Shown here: positions 14,268-60,090 of the stretch, piece after piece
Numbering within the stretch: the stretch's first letter is position 1
Layout: each line of letters starts with the position of its first letter
Assembly (NCBI RefSeq): GCF_002073975.1
Contig: NZ_CP020384.1
Span: forward strand, 1,550,001 to 1,614,000
DNA length: 64,000 nucleotides
Direction of reading: 5' to 3'
Source: Rhodovulum sp. MB263
GTDB taxonomy: Bacteria > Pseudomonadota > Alphaproteobacteria > Rhodobacterales > Rhodobacteraceae
Position numbers and translations under genes: made by a program
Notes under the pieces: model-generated
Told to the model about the DNA's origin: nothing
Databases searched by the model: none
The model's input: only the letters and a program-made list of their open reading frames with translations

Positions 14268-14300
14268 TCGCGCCCCGGCAGGCAAGGCGGCTTCAAGGAA

Positions 14301-14331
14301 ACGCCCGGCCCCTGGCAGGCCGGGCGTTTTT
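14301..14331 (+). terminator. terminator after zapA
   Basis: ACGCCCGGCC (14301-14310) pairs with GGCCGGGCGT (14318-14327), a 10-bp stem with 7-nt loop, followed by TTTTTC. It separates zapA from the convergent gene on the minus strand. Confidence 0.88.
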
Positions 14332-19351: not shown

Positions 19352-22300
19352 ATGACCAGAGCCGATGTCCGCCTTCAGGACCGTTACGATCTGTCGAAAC
19401 CCACGATTTTGCTGAACGGAACGCAGGCGCTGGTCCGTCTGATGCTGATGCAGGCCGCGCGCGACCGGGCCGCGGGGCTGAACACCGGCGGCTATGTCAC
19501 CGGTTATCGCGGTTCGCCGCTGGGTGCGGTCGATCTGCAGATGATGCGGGCGCAGGCCGAGCTCGGGGCGGCGGGGGTGCTGTTTCAGCCCGGGCTGAAC
19601 GAGGATCTGGCGCTGACCGCGCTTTGGGGGACGCAGCAGGCCGAGCTGAGGGGCGAGGGGGCGCGGGACGGGGTGTTCGGGCTCTGGTACGGCAAGGGGC
19701 CGGGGGTCGACCGCTCGGGCGACGCGATCCGCCATGCCAATCTTGCCGGAACCTCGGCCCGGGGCGGGGTGCTGCTGGCGATGGGCGACGATCATACCGG
19801 CGAATCCTCGACCACCTGCCACCAGTCCGACTGGGCGATGGTCGATGCCTATGTGCCGGTGCTCTCGCCCGCGGGCGTGCAGGAGATCCTCGATTACGGG
19901 ATCTACGGCTATGCCCTGTCGCGCTTTGCCGGAGTGCTGGTCGGGCTGAAGGTGATGAAGGACACGGTCGAGGTGACCTCGGTCGTCGATGGCCGCCCCG
20001 GGCGGATGCAGGTGGTGTCTCCCGATTATCCGCTGCCGCCGGGGGGGCTGAACATCCGGCTGAACGATCACTGGGTGACGCAGGAGGCGCGCATGATCGA
20101 TCACAAGCGCTTTGCGGCCGAGGCCTTCGCCCGCGCCAACCGCATCGACCGGCGGGTCTGGGGCAGGCCGGGGGCGAAGATCGGGCTGGTGGCGGCGGGC
20201 AAGACCTGGCTCGATCTGGTCCATGCGCTGGATCTGCTGGGGATCGGCGAGGCCGAGGCCGAGCGGCTGGGGATTTCGACCTACAAGGTGGGGCAGGTCT
20301 GGCCGCTGGACATGACGGGCTTTGCCGAATTCTCGGAAGGGCTCGATCTGATCGTCACCGTCGAGGAAAAGCGCAAGCTGATCGAGGTGCAGGCCAAGGA
20401 GGCGATCTTCCATGACCGACGCGGTCGCCGGATCTATGGTTGGAAGAATGATCGCGGCGAAGAGCTGTTCCCGACCCGCTACGCGCTCGACCCGGTGATG
20501 ATCGCCGATACGCTGGGCCGGATCCTGATCGAGGAGGGGCGCGGCAGCGACCGGCTCCAGGCCGCGCTTGAGCGCATCCGCGCGGCGCGGCGCGCCGACA
20601 ATGCCGAGGACCTGGCGGCCCGGCTTCCCTATTTCTGCGCGGGCTGTCCGCATAACAGCTCGACCCGGGTGCCTGAGGGCGGGCGCGCCTATGCCGGGAT
20701 CGGCTGCCATATCATGGCGCTGTGGATGGATCGCGACACCAGCGGCTTCACCCATATGGGGGCCGAGGGGGCGAACTGGATCGGCGAGGCGCCGTTCTCG
20801 ACACGGGGCCACGTGTTCCAGAACCTGGGCGATGGCACCTACAACCATTCGGGGCGGCTCGCGATCCATGCCGCCATCGCGGCGGGCGTCAATATCACCT
20901 ACAAGATCCTCTATAATGACGCGGTCGCCATGACCGGCGGGCAGGGCAATGATGGCGGCCTGACCGCGCGCCAGATCGTCGACGAATTGCTGGCGGCCGG
21001 GGTGGCGCGGGTCGAGGTCGTCTATGACGAGAAGGAAGATCTCGACCCTAAGGGCTTTCCGGCCGGGGTTGCCAGCCAGCCGCGCGCGGATCTGATGGCG
21101 GTGCAGAAGCGGCTGTCCGGGATCGCGGGCGTGACCGCGCTGGTCTATGTCCAGACCTGTGCCGCCGAGAAGCGCCGGCGCCGCAAGAAGGGGGCCTTCC
21201 CCGATCCCGACAGGCGGGTCTTCATCAATACCGATATCTGCGAGGGCTGCGGCGATTGCGGGCTGCAGTCGAATTGCGTGGCCATCGTGCCGGTCGAGAC
21301 CGAACTGGGCCGCAAGCGCGCCATCGATCAGTCGGCCTGCAACAAGGATTTCTCCTGCCTCAACGGCTTCTGCCCCTCTTTCGTGACGCTGAAGGGGGCG
21401 CGGCCGCGCAGACAGGCTTCGGCCGAGGTCGAGATCGGTGCGCTGCCCGCGCCCGTCTTGCCCGCGATCGAGGGCACCTGGAACCTGGTCATTACCGGGG
21501 TTGGCGGCACCGGCGCCGTGACCATCGGCGCGATCCTGGCCATGGCCGCCCATGTCGACGGCAAGGGCGCGGGGATGATGGAGATGGCCGGGCTCGCCCA
21601 GAAGGGGGGCGCGGTCCATATCCACTGCCGGATCGCCGCGCGGCCCGAAGACATCTCGGCGATCCGGGTTGCGGCCGGCGAGGCCGATGCGGTGATCGGT
21701 GGCGATCTGGTGGTGACGGCGGGGGCCAGGACCGTCGGGCTGATGACGCCGGGCCGCACCGGGGCCGTGGTCAACAGCCATGACATCGTGACCGGCGCCT
21801 TCACCCGCGATCCGGAATTCCGGGTGCCCTCGGACCGGCTGGAACTGGCGCTGAAGGCTCGACTGAAGGACCGGCTGCAGCTTTTCGATGCGACCGAACT
21901 GGCACGGCGGCTGATGGGCGACACGATCTACACCAACATGATCGTCACCGGCGCCGCCTGGCAGCAGGGGCTGATCCCGCTCTCGCATGAGGCCATCGAG
22001 CGGGCGATCGAGCTGAACGGCGCGGGTGTCGCGGGCAACCGGCGCGCCTTCGAGATCGGGCGCTGGGCCGCGGCCGAGCCCGCCGCCGCGGACCGGGCGC
22101 TGGCCTCAGGGGCCGTCGCGAAGCCCCGCGCGCTTCATGAACGGATCGCCTTCCGCGAGGCGCATCTGCGGGCCTATCAGTCGGAGCGGCTGGCCCGGCG
22201 CTATCGCCGGATGGTCGGGCGCTTCGAGGACCCGGTCCTGCGCGCTGCCGTCGCGAAGGGCTATCACAAGCTTCTGGCCTACAAGGATGAATACGAGGTC

Positions 22301-24724: not shown

Positions 24725-25753
24725 ATGACACAATCCGTCGCCATCCTCGGCGCCTCGGGCTATACCGGGGCAGAGCTCGTTCGGCTGATCGCGACCCATC
24801 CCGAGCTTCGCATCACCGCCTTGTCGGGCGAGCGAAAGGCCGGCATGGCGATGGCGTCGGTGTTTCCCCATCTGCGCCATCTCGACCTGCCCGATCTGGT
24901 GAAGATCGAGGAGATCGACTTCGGCTCCGTCGATCTGGCCTTCTGCGCGCTGCCGCATGCGACCAGCCAGGCTGTGATCCGGGAGCTGCCCCGCGATCTG
25001 AAGGTCGTCGATCTCTCGGCCGATTTCCGGCTGCGCGACCCGGCTGCTTATGAAAAATGGTATGGCAAGCCCCATTCTGCGGTCGAGCTGCAGAAGGAGG
25101 CCGTCTATGGCCTCACCGAATTCTATCGTGACGAGATTCGCCGCGCCCGGCTGGTGGCGGGCACCGGCTGCAACGCCGCGACCGGGCAATATGCGCTGCG
25201 GCCGCTGATCGAGGCGGGCGTGATCGACCTTGACGAGATTGTGATCGATCTCAAGGCCGGGGTCTCGGGGGCGGGCCGGGCGCTGAAGGAGAACCTGCTT
25301 CATGCCGAGCTGTCGGAAGGCTTCCATGCCTATTCGGCAGGCGGTATTCACAGGCATCTGGGCGAGTTCGACCAGGAATTCTCGAAGATCGCCGGGCGGC
25401 CGGTCGAGGTGCAGTTCACCCCGCATCTGATCCCCGCCAACCGGGGAATTCTGGCCACCGTCTATGTCAGGGGCGAGGCCCGCGACATTCACGCCACCTT
25501 GGCAAAGGCCTATGGCGATGAAATCTTCCTTCAGGTCCTGCCCTTCGGCGAGCATCCCTCGACCCGGCATATCCGCGGCTCGAACTTCGTGCATCTCGGC
25601 GTTGTTGCGGACCGGCGACCGGGCCGGGCCATGGTGATCGCGGCGCTCGACAACCTGACCAAGGGCTCGTCAGGGCAAGCGCTGCAGAATGCCAACCTGA
25701 TGCTCGGGATCGCCGAGGAAACCGGCCTGATGCTGGCCCCCTGCTTCCCCTGA
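24725..25753 (+). CDS. argC: N-acetyl-gamma-glutamyl-phosphate reductase
   Basis: NADPH-dependent third step of arginine synthesis. The 342 residues begin with the nucleotide-binding [13 protein letters not shown], and [19 protein letters not shown] and [12 protein letters not shown] with the catalytic His are visible. The catalytic Cys149 is in [11 protein letters not shown], where the most familiar form of the motif is NPGCYPT. The start at 24725 is set by [12 protein letters not shown]. ccmE follows after 13 bases, so the pair is probably co-transcribed although functionally unrelated. Confidence 0.93.
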
Positions 25754-25766
25754 GGGAGAACGCAAG

Positions 25767-26228
25767 ATGCGCGGATTGAAGAAGAGACGGCGGATACAGA
25801 TCATCGTTCTGGCCTTCGTGGCTCTGGGGCTGTCGACCGGGCTGATCGGCTATGCGATGCGCGACGGCATCAACTTCTTCCGCTCGCCGAGCCAGGTGAC
25901 CGAGGCGCCGCCGCCGCCGACCGAGACCTTCCGCATCGGCGGCCTGGTCGAGGCCGGGACGCTGAAGCGCGGGCAGGGCGAGACCATCCGCTTCAATGTC
26001 ACCGATGGCGGCGCCAGCGTGCCCGTCACCTATACCGGCGTGCTGCCCGATCTGTTCAAGGAGAACCAGGGCATGATCGGCACCGGGCGTCTGGTCGACG
26101 GTGTGTTCGAGGCGCGCGAGATCCTTGCCAAGCATGACGAAAGCTACATGCCGAAGGAAGTGGTCGACGCGCTGAAGGAGCAGGGCGTCTATCGTGACCC
26201 GAAGGTTGAGGGCGCGAGCGGCAGCTAA
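25767..26228 (+). CDS. ccmE: cytochrome c maturation heme chaperone CcmE
   Basis: Periplasmic, membrane-anchored heme chaperone that receives heme from CcmC/CcmD and passes it to CcmF. It has a basic N terminus, one membrane segment (about residues 10-31) and the OB-fold domain with FRIGGLVEAGTLKR. The heme-linking His123 and Tyr127 lie in AKHDESYMP. The 153-residue length is normal. In many bacteria ccmF and ccmH follow directly; here two lysis genes intervene before ccmF. Confidence 0.95.
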   Translation: MRGLKKRRRIQIIVLAFVALGLSTGLIGYAMRDGINFFRSPSQVTEAPPPPTETFRIGGLVEAGTLKRGQGETIRFNVTDGGASVPVTYTGVLPDLFKENQGMIGTGRLVDGVFEAREILAKHDESYMPKEVVDALKEQGVYRDPKVEGASGS

Positions 26229-26252
26229 GCCCGACCCTAACCTTTGTGACCC

Positions 26253-26288
26253 AATCTCCCCCGGTTCCGATGTGAAGCGGGGGAGATT
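26253..26288 (+). promoter_or_regulatory. stem-loop that sequesters the endolysin ribosome binding site
   Basis: AATCTCCCCCG (26253-26263) and CGGGGGAGATT (26278-26288) form a perfect 11-bp stem with a 14-nt loop. The 3' arm contains GGGGGAG, the ribosome binding site of the endolysin gene whose ATG is at 26294. In RNA the stem would hide it. No T-run follows, so it is not an intrinsic terminator for ccmE. Confidence 0.7.
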
Positions 26289-26293
26289 CCGTC

Positions 26294-26905
26294 ATGAAGA
26301 CAGTTGAACAGCTGGCGCAGGAGATCGTCCTGCGCGAGGGGGGCTTTGTCGACGATCCCGACGATCCGGGCGGGCCGACCAAGCATGGGGTCACGCTCGG
26401 CACGCTCAGGCGGCTCGGGCTCGACCTGACCGGCGATGGGCGGGTCGATACCGACGATGTCCGGGGGCTCGATCCCGGGCGGGCGGCCGCGATCTACATC
26501 GAGCATTATTTCCGACGTCCCAGGCTCGACGCGCTGCCCGAGCTGCTGCATCCGTCCGTCTTCGACATGTATGTGAATGCGGGCGCCAATGCGGTGCGGA
26601 TCCTGCAGCGCCTGCTGAACGAGATGGACCAGCCCTGCGCGGTCGACGGGTCGGTCGGCCCAGAGACGGTGCATGCGGCGCGCATCGCGGCCGAGGCTGC
26701 ACCGGGGCATATCGCCGATGCCTATGGCATCGCCCGGCGCAACTACTATTACGCGCTGGCAGACCGCCGCCCGGCCAGTCGGAAATATGCCTGCCGCCGC
26801 GACGGAGGCAAGGGCGGCTGGATCCTCCGGGCCGAGGAATTCATCTCGCCGCGCTATCGGCTGAGCGAGGAAGAGCATCGCGAGAGGGTCGCGGGATGGG
26901 GATGA
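26294..26905 (+). CDS. GH108 family endolysin (muramidase), probable gene transfer agent release lysin
   Basis: A 203-residue peptidoglycan muramidase. The N-terminal glycoside hydrolase 108 domain has the catalytic-type Glu15 in LREGGFVDDPDDPGGPTKHG, and the C-terminal half matches the peptidoglycan-binding PG_binding_3 domain (VFDMYVNAGANAVRILQRLLNE onward). Residues 44-55 (DLTGDGRVDTDD) fit an EF-hand calcium loop. There is no signal peptide, so exit to the cell wall needs the holin encoded next, with overlapping reading frames. The same kind of pair releases gene transfer agent particles in Rhodobacter capsulatus. Translation may be limited by the upstream hairpin. Confidence 0.88.
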   Translation: MKTVEQLAQEIVLREGGFVDDPDDPGGPTKHGVTLGTLRRLGLDLTGDGRVDTDDVRGLDPGRAAAIYIEHYFRRPRLDALPELLHPSVFDMYVNAGANAVRILQRLLNEMDQPCAVDGSVGPETVHAARIAAEAAPGHIADAYGIARRNYYYALADRRPASRKYACRRDGGKGGWILRAEEFISPRYRLSEEEHRERVAGWG

Positions 26906-27486
26906 TGAACGGGGTTCTGGGCATGCTGTTTTCCGGCGGACCGACCGCGATCCGAGAGGCGGCCGAGCTGTTCCGCGTCAATGCCGAGGCGGCCGACAGG
27001 CGCGATCTCGAGTTGCGGCGCGCGGTTCTGGAGGAATTCTCCCATGAGTTCGCGCAGCCGCGCGCGACGACCTTCGACCGTCTGATTGACGGCGCCAACC
27101 GCCTGCCGCGCCCGCTGATGGCCCTGGGCACGGTGGGGCTGGCCGTCTCGGCAATGGTCGATCCGGTCTGGTTCGCGGCGCGGATGCAGGGCATGGCGCT
27201 GGTGCCAGAGCCGCTCTGGTGGTTGATGGGGGCGATCATCAGCTTCTATTTCGGCGCGCGCTATCAGGCCAAGGGGCAGGAGTTCCAGCGCTCTATCGCC
27301 GGAACGATGGCGATGGCGCCGGTGGTGGCGCGCAATCTGCAGCAGTTGCGCGTCTTGTCCGATGCGGGGTCCGATGTGGGGGCCGACGCGGGGAGGGCCG
27401 AGCCTGCCGGCCTGCAAAACAGTGGCACGATGCCGCGGTCGCAGGGGCCGAACCCGGCGCTGGAGGACTGGAGGGCAGGGCTTTGA
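26896..27486 (+). CDS. 3TM holin, GTA release type
   Basis: A 196-residue membrane protein of the GTA holin family (holin of three transmembrane segments). An N-terminal amphipathic region and FDRLIDGANRLPRPLMALG lead into hydrophobic segments at roughly 72-90 and 105-122 with a weaker one near the N terminus. The C terminus is hydrophilic. It overlaps the endolysin stop; alternative in-frame starts at 26902 and 26905 are equally possible, the former giving an ATGA coupling. The pore it forms would let the endolysin reach the wall. It is separated from ccmF by 213 bases with no other gene. Confidence 0.86.
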   Translation: MGMMNGVLGMLFSGGPTAIREAAELFRVNAEAADRRDLELRRAVLEEFSHEFAQPRATTFDRLIDGANRLPRPLMALGTVGLAVSAMVDPVWFAARMQGMALVPEPLWWLMGAIISFYFGARYQAKGQEFQRSIAGTMAMAPVVARNLQQLRVLSDAGSDVGADAGRAEPAGLQNSGTMPRSQGPNPALEDWRAGL

Positions 27487-27699: not shown

Positions 27700-29682
27700 A
27701 TGGTTATCGAGCTCGGCCACTTTGCCCTCGCCCTCGCCTTCGCCATTGCCCTGGTGCAGGCGATCATTCCTTTGATCGGCGCTCACAAGGGCTGGAGCGG
27801 CTGGATGGCGATGGCCGAACCGGCCGCCATCGCGCAGTTCCTGCTGACCGCCTTCAGCTTCGGGGTACTGACCTACGCTTTCGTGGTCTCGGATTTCTCG
27901 CTTCGGGTCGTGGTCGATAACTCGCACACGCTGAAGCCGATGCTTTACAAGGTGTCGGGCGTGTGGGGCAATCACGAGGGCTCGATGCTGCTCTGGGTGC
28001 TGATCGTGGCGTTTTACGGCGCGCTCGCGGCCTGGTTCGGCGGCGGCCTGCCGCCCGGTCTGAAGGCGCGGGTGCTGGCGGTTCAGGGGGCCATCGGCGC
28101 GGCCTTCTACGCCTTCATCCTGTTCACCTCGAACCCGTTCGAGCGCCTGCCCGAGGCGCCCTTCGACGGCCAGGACCTGAACCCGCTGCTGCAGGATCCC
28201 GGCCTCGCCTTTCATCCGCCCTTCCTCTATCTCGGCTATGTCGGGCTTTCGATCTGCTTCTCCTTCGCGGTCGCCGCCCTGATCGAGGGCCGTGTCGATG
28301 CCGCCTGGGGGCGCTGGGTCAGGCCCTGGACGCTCGCAGCCTGGATCTGCCTGACCGTCGGCATCGCGCTGGGGTCCTGGTGGGCCTATTACGAACTGGG
28401 CTGGGGCGGCTTCTGGTTCTGGGACCCGGTCGAGAACGCCTCTTTCATGCCCTGGCTCATCGCCGCAGCATTGCTGCATTCCGCGATCGTGGTCGAGAAG
28501 CGCGAGGCGCTGAAGAGCTGGACGATCCTTCTGTCCATCGTCGCCTTCGGCTTCTCGCTGGTCGGGGCCTTCATCACCCGTTCGGGCATCATCACCAGCG
28601 TCCATGCCTTCGCCAACGACCCCGAGCGCGGCGTCTTCCTGCTGATGATCCTGCTGGTCTTCATGGGCGGCGCGCTGACGCTGTTTGCGGTACGTGCCAG
28701 CGCGATGGAGGCCAAGGGCGTCTTCGGCTCGATCAGCCGGGAATCGGCGCTGGTCTTCAACAATATCCTGCTGGCGGTCGCTGCGCTGGTCGTATTCGTC
28801 GGCACGATCTGGCCGCTGGTCGCCGAGATGGCCTTCGACCGCAAGCTCTCGGTCGGCGCGCCCTTCTTCGACATGGCCTTCACGCCCTTCATGGTGGCGC
28901 TGGCCTTGCTGCTGCCTTTGGGCTCGATCCTGCCCTGGAAGCGGGCGCGGCTGGGCCGTGCGGCCAGGACTGTGCTTCCCGCGGCGGTACTGGCGGTTGC
29001 CTTTGGTGCCCTGATCTGGGCGATGCAGACCGGTCGCAGCGCGCTGGGTCCCGTCGGCGTGGCGCTTGGCATCTGGCTGATCGCAGGCGCCCTCGTCGAT
29101 CTTTTGATGCGCGCCGGGCGAGGCAAGGGGCTTCTGGTCCGGGCCGGGCGGCTTGCGCGGCTGCCGCGGGCCGACTGGGGCAAGGCGGTCGCGCATGCCG
29201 GGCTCGGGATCACCATGATCGGCATTTCCGCGATGCTGGCCTGGAACCAGGAAGACATTCGCGTGGCCCAGATCGGCGAGCGCTATGACCTGGGCGGCTA
29301 CGGCTTCCGGCTGGACCGGGTGCAGAAGCTGGAAGGCCCGAACTACATCTCGACCACCGCCACCATGAGCGTCTGGCGCGGCGACAAGCAGATCGCAGAA
29401 ATGCATCCCGAAAAGCGGGTCTACCCGGTCGCGGGCATGCCCACGACCGAGGCGGCCATCGACGGCGGGTTTCTGCGCGATCTTTATGTCGCCATCGGCG
29501 ATCCGCAGCAGGACGGCGGCTGGGCGGTGCGCACTTATATCAAGCCCTTCGCCAACTGGATCTGGATGGGGGCCATCGTGATGGCGCTGGGCGGGCTTCT
29601 CAGCCTTTCCGATCGCCGGGTCCGCGTTGCCGCCGGGGCGCGCAAGGATCGCGGCCCCGTGCTGCCCCAGCCCGCCGAATGA
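27700..29682 (+). CDS. ccmF: cytochrome c heme lyase component CcmF
   Basis: Multi-pass inner-membrane protein that attaches heme to apocytochrome c, working with CcmH and heme-loaded CcmE. The 660 residues contain the heme-handling WWD domain, GWGGFWFWDPVENASFMPW near residue 235-255, and many hydrophobic segments. The large periplasmic domain near the C terminus is also present (YDLGGYGFRLDRVQ). The start at 27700 has only a weak GGGTAAGAC upstream. It overlaps ccmH by four bases (ATGA). Confidence 0.94.
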   Translation: MVIELGHFALALAFAIALVQAIIPLIGAHKGWSGWMAMAEPAAIAQFLLTAFSFGVLTYAFVVSDFSLRVVVDNSHTLKPMLYKVSGVWGNHEGSMLLWVLIVAFYGALAAWFGGGLPPGLKARVLAVQGAIGAAFYAFILFTSNPFERLPEAPFDGQDLNPLLQDPGLAFHPPFLYLGYVGLSICFSFAVAALIEGRVDAAWGRWVRPWTLAAWICLTVGIALGSWWAYYELGWGGFWFWDPVENASFMPWLIAAALLHSAIVVEKREALKSWTILLSIVAFGFSLVGAFITRSGIITSVHAFANDPERGVFLLMILLVFMGGALTLFAVRASAMEAKGVFGSISRESALVFNNILLAVAALVVFVGTIWPLVAEMAFDRKLSVGAPFFDMAFTPFMVALALLLPLGSILPWKRARLGRAARTVLPAAVLAVAFGALIWAMQTGRSALGPVGVALGIWLIAGALVDLLMRAGRGKGLLVRAGRLARLPRADWGKAVAHAGLGITMIGISAMLAWNQEDIRVAQIGERYDLGGYGFRLDRVQKLEGPNYISTTATMSVWRGDKQIAEMHPEKRVYPVAGMPTTEAAIDGGFLRDLYVAIGDPQQDGGWAVRTYIKPFANWIWMGAIVMALGGLLSLSDRRVRVAAGARKDRGPVLPQPAE

Positions 29683-30251: not shown

Positions 30252-31031
30252 GTGACGGATTACAAGACCATCGGATTTGACTGCACGAACGGGCTGGCGG
30301 TGGTGACGCTGAACCGGCCCGAGGTGATGAATGCGCTCAGCGCGCAGATGCGGGCCGAGATCGCCCATGCGATGCGCGCGGCGGGGCAGGCGGCGCGGGT
30401 CGTGGTACTGACCGGCGCGGGCCGGGCCTTCTGTTCGGGGCAGGACCTGGGCGACGGTGCCAACATCGCCAATATCGACATCGAGCGCACGCTGCGGGAC
30501 GAATACGAACCGATGCTGAACGCCATCATCGACTGTCCGGTGCCGGTGATCGCGGCGGTCAACGGCGCCGCCGCCGGGGCCGGGGCCAATCTGGCGCTGG
30601 CCGCCGATGTGGTCATCGCCTCCGAGGCTGCGGTTTTCGTGCAGGCCTTTACCCGCATCGGGCTGATCCCCGATGCGGGCGGCACTTACTGGCTGCCCCG
30701 GCAGGTGGGCTTTGCCCGCGCGATGGGGGCGGCCCTTTTCGCCGAACCCGTCCCGGCGCGTCAGGCGGCCGAGTGGGGCATGATCTGGGAGGCCGTGCCC
30801 GAGGACGGGTTCGAGGCCCACTGGCGCGCCCGGGCGGCGCAGCTGGCCTCTGGGCCGACCGTGGCTTACGCCAATCTCAAGACCGCGCTGCGGCGCTCGG
30901 TCTCGAACGATTTCGAGACCCAGCTGTCGCTGGAGGCCGAACTGCAGGGCCGCTGCGGTGCCTCGCGCGACTTCAAGGAGGGCGTGCTGGCCTTTCTCGA
31001 GAAGCGCAAGGCCCGGTTCGAGGGCTGCTGA
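30252..31031 (+). CDS. enoyl-CoA hydratase/isomerase, PaaG-like
   Basis: A 259-residue crotonase-fold protein. The oxyanion-hole segments RAFCSGQDLGD and NGAAAGAGANLALAAD are present, as is IGLIPDAGGTYWLPRQVG, a stretch very characteristic of PaaG, the ring 1,2-epoxyphenylacetyl-CoA isomerase. Other enoyl-CoA hydratases share the fold, so phenylacetate degradation is likely but not proven, and no other paa gene is in the window. The start is GTG at 30252 after GGGGAGGATAC. Confidence 0.85.
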   Translation: MTDYKTIGFDCTNGLAVVTLNRPEVMNALSAQMRAEIAHAMRAAGQAARVVVLTGAGRAFCSGQDLGDGANIANIDIERTLRDEYEPMLNAIIDCPVPVIAAVNGAAAGAGANLALAADVVIASEAAVFVQAFTRIGLIPDAGGTYWLPRQVGFARAMGAALFAEPVPARQAAEWGMIWEAVPEDGFEAHWRARAAQLASGPTVAYANLKTALRRSVSNDFETQLSLEAELQGRCGASRDFKEGVLAFLEKRKARFEGC

Positions 31032-31385: not shown

Positions 31386-31420
31386 GGACCCGCAGGCATC
31401 GGCCTGCGGGTCCTGTGTTT
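31386..31420 (+). terminator. terminator after the small lipoprotein
   Basis: GGACCCGCAGG (31386-31396) and CCTGCGGGTCC (31403-31413), an 11-bp stem with 6-nt loop, followed by TGTGTTT. It also lies just past the stop of convergent gltA. Confidence 0.8.
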
Positions 31421-34237: not shown

Positions 34238-34314
34238 GAGCCTTAACCTTTTGTTCACCATGATGGAGATAGCGTCTCCGCCTGTCTAGGAGATCGCTGC
34301 GGAGAGGACAAGCG

Positions 34315-56943: not shown

Positions 56944-56971
56944 GAACACCCGCCCCTTGTGGCGGGTGTTC
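56944..56971 (+). terminator. hairpin after recA
   Basis: GAACACCCGCC (56944-56954) pairs with GGCGGGTGTTC (56961-56971), an 11-bp stem with a 6-nt loop. Only CCG-rich sequence follows, so termination is probable but not typical. Confidence 0.55.
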
Positions 56972-60047: not shown

Positions 60048-60090
60048 AAAAGGCCGCGCTCCGATCCCGGGCGCGGCCTTTTGCATTTCT
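60048..60090 (+). terminator. terminator after the alaS-DUF1330 unit
   Basis: AAAAGGCCGCGC (60048-60059) pairs with GCGCGGCCTTTT (60071-60082) around an 11-nt loop, with further T-rich sequence. The A-run makes it bidirectional. Confidence 0.9.

Follow-up and report, generated by a model that had tools for sequence, protein, structure and literature searches.

The closest described systems come from T4 and related phages. In gene e of T4, long early transcripts form an inhibitory structure and lysozyme is about 100-fold lower, while the late promoters lie in the 5' strand of this structure and give rise to RNA that lacks it (PMC3014915). The hairpin in the gene e leader goes back to McPheeters et al. 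1986, as cited in PMC2988022. The same plan was described for I-TevI, segB and mobE (PMC2988022). In these cases (I-TevI and segB of T4, mobE of Aeh1), the read-through RNA is silenced by an SD hairpin and the gene is expressed from an internal late promoter.

The locus presented here appears to follow a comparable plan in a bacterial setting. Like T4 gene e, it concerns a lysis gene, and RNA folding places both its SD and AUG in a stable helix of the long upstream transcript. A dedicated promoter, recognized by its conserved motif and spacing, overlaps the 5' strand of this helix, its start being predicted. Unlike in gene e, the promoter is apparently of the host CtrA type and the long transcript would be that of a host housekeeping operon. 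The phage late promoter of gene e, TATAAATA, is absent, and the endolysin has TTAACC-N9/10-NAnnnT instead. Further, the protein made is the GH108 endolysin of a domesticated GTA, and relatives across a bacterial family conserve the element. With I-TevI, segB and mobE the locus shares the embedding of a gene in a foreign transcription unit, but those genes code for homing endonucleases of lytic phage and the present one for a GTA lysis protein. The general mechanism is already known from T4 gene e; it is the promoter and the host setting that differ. In the literature we searched, nothing joined GTAs with an SD hairpin, nor was it mentioned that the lysis genes lie between ccmE and ccmF. Within these limits, the statement of the earlier note that such control has not been described for GTA lysis genes still stands.

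The window, i.e. the whole stretch of 64,000 nucleotides of Rhodovulum sp. MB263 DNA that was analysed, contains argC, ccmE, the endolysin, the holin and ccmF, all of them on the + strand (Table 1). The GTA structural cluster is found at another site of the same genome, near 2.49 Mb. Two peculiarities were seen in other genomes of the genus. Firstly, the endolysin match of L017/L019 (G009:C45:53022-53623) comes in two pieces with an in-frame TGA, which may mean a broken gene or a faulty assembly. Secondly, one genome harbors a second endolysin-holin pair (L018, G007:C1:4168-4776) that is 60% identical and has no ccm context; perhaps it comes from a prophage.

Table 1. Features of the lysis cassette, its start region and the neighboring genes (coordinates of the window)
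Feature	Coordinates	Strand	Remarks
argC	24725-25753	+	13 nt 5' of ccmE; Pfam search and coordinates
ccmE	25767-26228	+	Pfam CcmE 4.3e-32; same strand, 65 nt 5' of endolysin
CtrA half-site-like element CTAACC	26237-26242	+	TTAACC in most relatives; first base C, not T
Lower stem, 5' strand CTTTGTGAC	26242-26250	+	paired with 26291-26299 in minimum-energy structure
-10-like hexamer CAATCT	26252-26257	+	nearly all within 5' arm; fixed spacing in relatives
5' (masking) arm AATCTCCCCCG	26253-26263	+	inverted-repeat check and RNA folding
Loop, 14 nt, with minor 3-bp extension	26264-26277	+	RNA folding
Predicted endolysin-holin transcription start	26264-26265	+	first bases after 5' arm, in loop
3' arm CGGGGGAGATT	26278-26288	+	contains SD GGGGGAG (26279-26285)
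Lower stem, 3' strand GTCATGAAG	26291-26299	+	contains AUG; minimum-energy structure
GTA endolysin	26294-26905	+	Pfam Glyco_hydro_108 3.9e-23, PG_binding_3 8.1e-20; ATG at 26294
GTA holin	26896-27486	+	Pfam GTA_holin_3TM 2.1e-25; overlaps endolysin
ccmF	27700-29682	+	Pfam search; lysis cassette splits ccmE from ccmF

The earlier note had reported a perfect 11-bp hairpin at 26253-26293 whose 3' arm contains the endolysin SD, GGGGGAG. Both arms are located exactly at these positions and the SD lies where it was claimed to lie. The 11 bp are thus correct, but the extent of the structure was understated. The overall arms measure 26 nt each (26242-26267/26274-26299, 81% complementary), and because the lower stem extends the hairpin, SD and AUG are both buried. 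Folding of a 102-nt RNA yielded -42.4 kcal/mol with a z of -3.9, none of 200 shuffles being equally good, and for a 146-nt RNA z reached -5.46. The inverted repeat AATCTCCCCCG/CGGGGGAGATT occurs a single time in the 4.16-Mb genome. A bare 11-bp stem is no rarity by itself; the window, which is GC-rich, holds 10 perfect 11-bp stems (some of them nested) compared with 0-4 in shuffles. What exceeds chance is the placement of the stem on the SD, together with its family-wide conservation at this one start site. The window holds further perfect stems, 11 bp or longer and closed by short loops, at 31386-31413, 30652-30679, 56944-56971, 14299-14329, 60048-60082 and 21628-21667, and these are likely in part terminators.

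For the study of conservation, endolysin loci were sampled from 16 Rhodovulum genomes (the genus of the window), from 80 Rhodobacteraceae loci and from 80 further genera. The endolysin is present in 260 of the 296 family genomes sampled (approximately one per genus), and in most Rhodobacteraceae the lysis cassette lies within the argC-ccmE-ccmF region. The conservation set comprised 146 distinct Rhodobacteraceae loci with ccmE at most 300 nt upstream of the endolysin. We regarded the SD as masked if the mean probability of pairing of positions -14 to -6 with the sequence just upstream exceeded 0.5. By this measure the SD is locally paired in 90% of the 146 endolysin starts, as compared with 24-47% for control starts of the same loci (argC, ccmE, ccmF and holin) and 21% for ctrA starts. 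The stretch from -46 to -1 has a median z of -2.0 against dinucleotide shuffles in these loci. The earlier note had let its claim depend on conservation of the stem; the stem is strongly conserved, with arms that compensate. Outside of the family, one locus (L184:850-880) has a GH108/PG_binding_3 endolysin beside a GTA-type holin, and there the SD, directly ahead of the ATG, is covered by a perfect TCCTCC-AACA-GGAGGA hairpin. An SD hairpin of this kind may recur in other families.

The 5' arm seems to serve as a part of a promoter as well. Its presumed type is TTAACC-N9/10-NAnnnT, with the spacing found in the promoter of ctrA itself. TTAAY or CTAACC is present between -75 and -37 in 120 of the 146 loci, where 0.015 would be expected per such interval from the upstream coding background, and its median position in the loci that have it is -52 from the ATG. 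In a -10 hexamer, the bases that matter most are A2 and T6. Among 113 loci, A....T is placed at +15 from TTAACC in 74% and at +16 in 21% (95% in total), and at any other offset tested in 8% at most. A pattern search brought up the ctrA promoter of the same genome, GTAAC-N6-TTAACC-N9-CAGGTT (L252, G000:C1:2051400-2052850). In ctrA promoters of the family (29 genera examined), A....T is at +15 in 19/22 and at +16 in 4/22 full sites. This near-fixed distance from TTAAC to the -10 in ctrA can be used as a template for CtrA-activated promoters of Rhodobacteraceae. GTAAC-N6-TTAAC is the published ctrA site of R. capsulatus (PMC6363796). The endolysin promoter shares the TTAAC-to--10 distance with CtrA-activated promoters of the ctrA P2 type (PMC4287350, PMC6363796). 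Unlike them, it has one well-conserved half-site, and its -10 doubles as an arm of the stem.

The start of transcription was predicted by two routes. In ctrA P2 of Caulobacter the full CtrA site is at -39 (PMC4287350), therefore the second TTAA is at -28, which gives a start at +28; counting from T-7 of the -10 gives +27. Both routes lead 27-28 nt past the first T of TTAACC and therefore to 26264-26265, the predicted start of the cassette's own transcript. The weak point of the CtrA half-site in the window is its one mismatch (CTAACC). A scan for the sigma-70 consensus found no promoter at the locus, as is expected for a promoter of the CtrA type. Genus-wide, TTAACC-N9/10-CANNNT is just slightly more numerous than its reversed control; the motif alone is therefore not diagnostic, and its value consists in position and conservation. 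Elsewhere in the window, 34243-34264 (+) reads TTAACCTTTTGTTCACCATGAT, which resembles a CtrA site; most of the 16 Rhodovulum genomes carry a nearly identical copy. It is possibly another CtrA promoter or site.

If transcription starts just after the 5' arm, the cassette's own transcripts will be devoid of that arm. Over 113 loci, a median of 73% of the 5' arm is missing from the RNA predicted for the cassette's own promoter; at least half of the arm is absent in 86% of them and more than half is kept in 14%. The median cost of opening the SD is 11.0 kcal/mol in the read-through RNA vs 3.7 kcal/mol in the short RNA, and the values for the window are 23.2 vs 3.0 kcal/mol. A weaker alternative stem remains in the short RNA.

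We consider it quite probable, from the sequences compared, that the GTA lysis cassette is under a translational lock whose promoter resides in the stem. RNA reading through from argC-ccmE would carry both arms, and the hairpin would hide SD and AUG. The endolysin would then stay untranslated from housekeeping RNA and so, probably, would the holin, by virtue of the overlap. CtrA (in R. capsulatus, CtrA~P and GafA) would switch on the cassette's own promoter with its -10 in the 5' arm. The resulting RNA would begin at the loop, the 5' arm would be missing from it largely or completely, and the SD would be accessible. We infer the exact start, the read-through in vivo and the translational repression. 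As far as sequence can go, the interpretation given in the earlier note is supported in both its parts. Masking of the site in argC-ccmE read-through RNA agrees with the computed pairing of the SD (the 90% above) and with the co-evolution of the arms described below, and free translation of a transcript from inside the stem agrees with the predicted start at the loop and the conserved promoter motif.

Another imaginable function of the hairpin would be mainly that of a terminator of argC-ccmE read-through, which RNA from the internal promoter escapes since it lacks the 5' arm. In a few loci (e.g. L006, L127 and L145), a T-run does stand between a GC stem and the adjacent ATG. However, five or more T among the 8 bases that follow the stem are found in just 3 of 146 loci, and four or more consecutive T ahead of the ATG in 9 of 146. 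In the window no U-tract follows the stem, and a terminator scan of the ccmE-endolysin gap revealed no terminator-like site. Termination as the main role is thus unlikely. In six loci (L006, L008, L016, L039, L127 and L145) the stem is followed by 4-6 T just before the endolysin ATG, and there the translational lock may double as a terminator.

RNA thermometers and some riboswitches likewise work by tying up the SD in a stem. By analogy, the hairpin could act as a sensor in the cassette's own transcript, whose 5' end is a predicted one; it would respond to temperature, a ligand or a protein and open at a late stage of GTA production. Yet the own transcript is predicted to lack most of the 5' arm, the loop sequences are not conserved across loci, and a scan of Rfam 15 (riboswitches, thermometers, leaders) gave no match up to E=5. 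We find a sensor quite unlikely.

How the two arms evolve bears on the nature of the element. In a MAFFT alignment its left half was good and its right half shifted, since loop lengths vary and make column alignment of the right half unreliable; alignment-free tests therefore replaced pair-by-pair covariation. In the arm-swap test, every 3' segment was matched in turn with the 5' segment of each other locus. The native partner ranked in the top 5% at 33% of the 141 endolysin loci, vs 6-14% for four control genes. The sister-pair test compared own with cross pairing in 73 nearest pairs, joined by the first 43 protein residues and disjoint, so that each pair is roughly an independent comparison. 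The own partner was favored in 56 of the 73 pairs and the reverse was true for 9 (median 5.5 kcal/mol, p=1e-9). The same test detected no coupling at the starts of ccmE, argC and holin, and a weak signal at that of ccmF (p=0.05).

These results also bear on whether the dyad might work at the DNA level, as an operator for GafA for instance, with RNA folding being incidental. GafA does bind the lysis promoter of R. capsulatus, where its site is imprecisely defined (excerpt of PMC6363796). A fixed operator would, however, keep its sequence, whereas the arms vary widely in sequence between genera and retain complementarity. In addition, conservation of the block is sharp when anchored on TTAACC and low when anchored on the hairpin. 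Pairing that persists while arm sequence changes points to an RNA structure rather than to an operator, which we consider very improbable. It is hardly credible that the complementarity of a C-rich -10 region to a G-rich SD reflects mere composition, with unselected pairing. Even swapped arms reach a median of -11.3 kcal/mol, but own arms surpass them in the sister pairs, and ctrA, with the same promoter type in another context, has no SD hairpin and leaves its SD unmasked.

A lock aimed at read-through RNA can be confronted with loci where the neighborhood differs. There are 12 further endolysin loci without ccmE, and in 12/12 the adjacent upstream gene is divergent (in most cases Cupin_5, in others a BadF-type ATPase or a GNAT), so that no read-through from that gene is possible. 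These loci probably stem from one main relocation. Most of them keep the TTAAC promoter and its spacing. SD pairing above 0.5 is found in 42% of divergent vs 90% of ccmE-linked loci (p=1e-4, uncorrected for phylogeny), and the strength of the hairpin is -13.1 vs -17.7 kcal/mol. This weaker masking fits a lock directed against read-through RNA, though not cleanly; some pairing is left at the divergent loci, and context is therefore not the whole story.

The element is present in R. capsulatus as well. The locus (L308) was taken from a genome with 100% identity to the capsid of PDB 6tba (3.9 Mb, two contigs). There, ccmE is 82 nt upstream of the endolysin, the promoter reads TTAACC-N9-CACCCT, and a CACCCTT/AAGGGGG hairpin covers the SD with a pairing of 0.77. 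With -13.6 kcal/mol (-46 to -1), this hairpin is weaker than that of the window. TTAAY together with SD pairing above 0.5 occurs in each of the 16 Rhodobacter loci found. Endolysin RNA of R. capsulatus requires CtrA and GafA (PMC6363796), and CtrA half-sites were noted at its lysis promoter (PMC9638019).

Taken together, we think it likely that a family-wide and so far undescribed RNA safety lock acts on a lethal gene of a domesticated phage which lives inside an essential host cluster. Because one and the same stretch would be CtrA-regulated -10, masking arm and start, opening of the lock would be inherent in the use of the right promoter. The proposal can be directly tested in R. capsulatus. 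GTA control in the literature searched is transcriptional (CtrA, GafA, quorum sensing), and the lock would add a translational layer to it, at the one step of GTA production that kills the cell. It would prevent accidental suicide from housekeeping read-through RNA, and it would explain how lysis genes persist in the argC-ccmE-ccmF region without leaky death.
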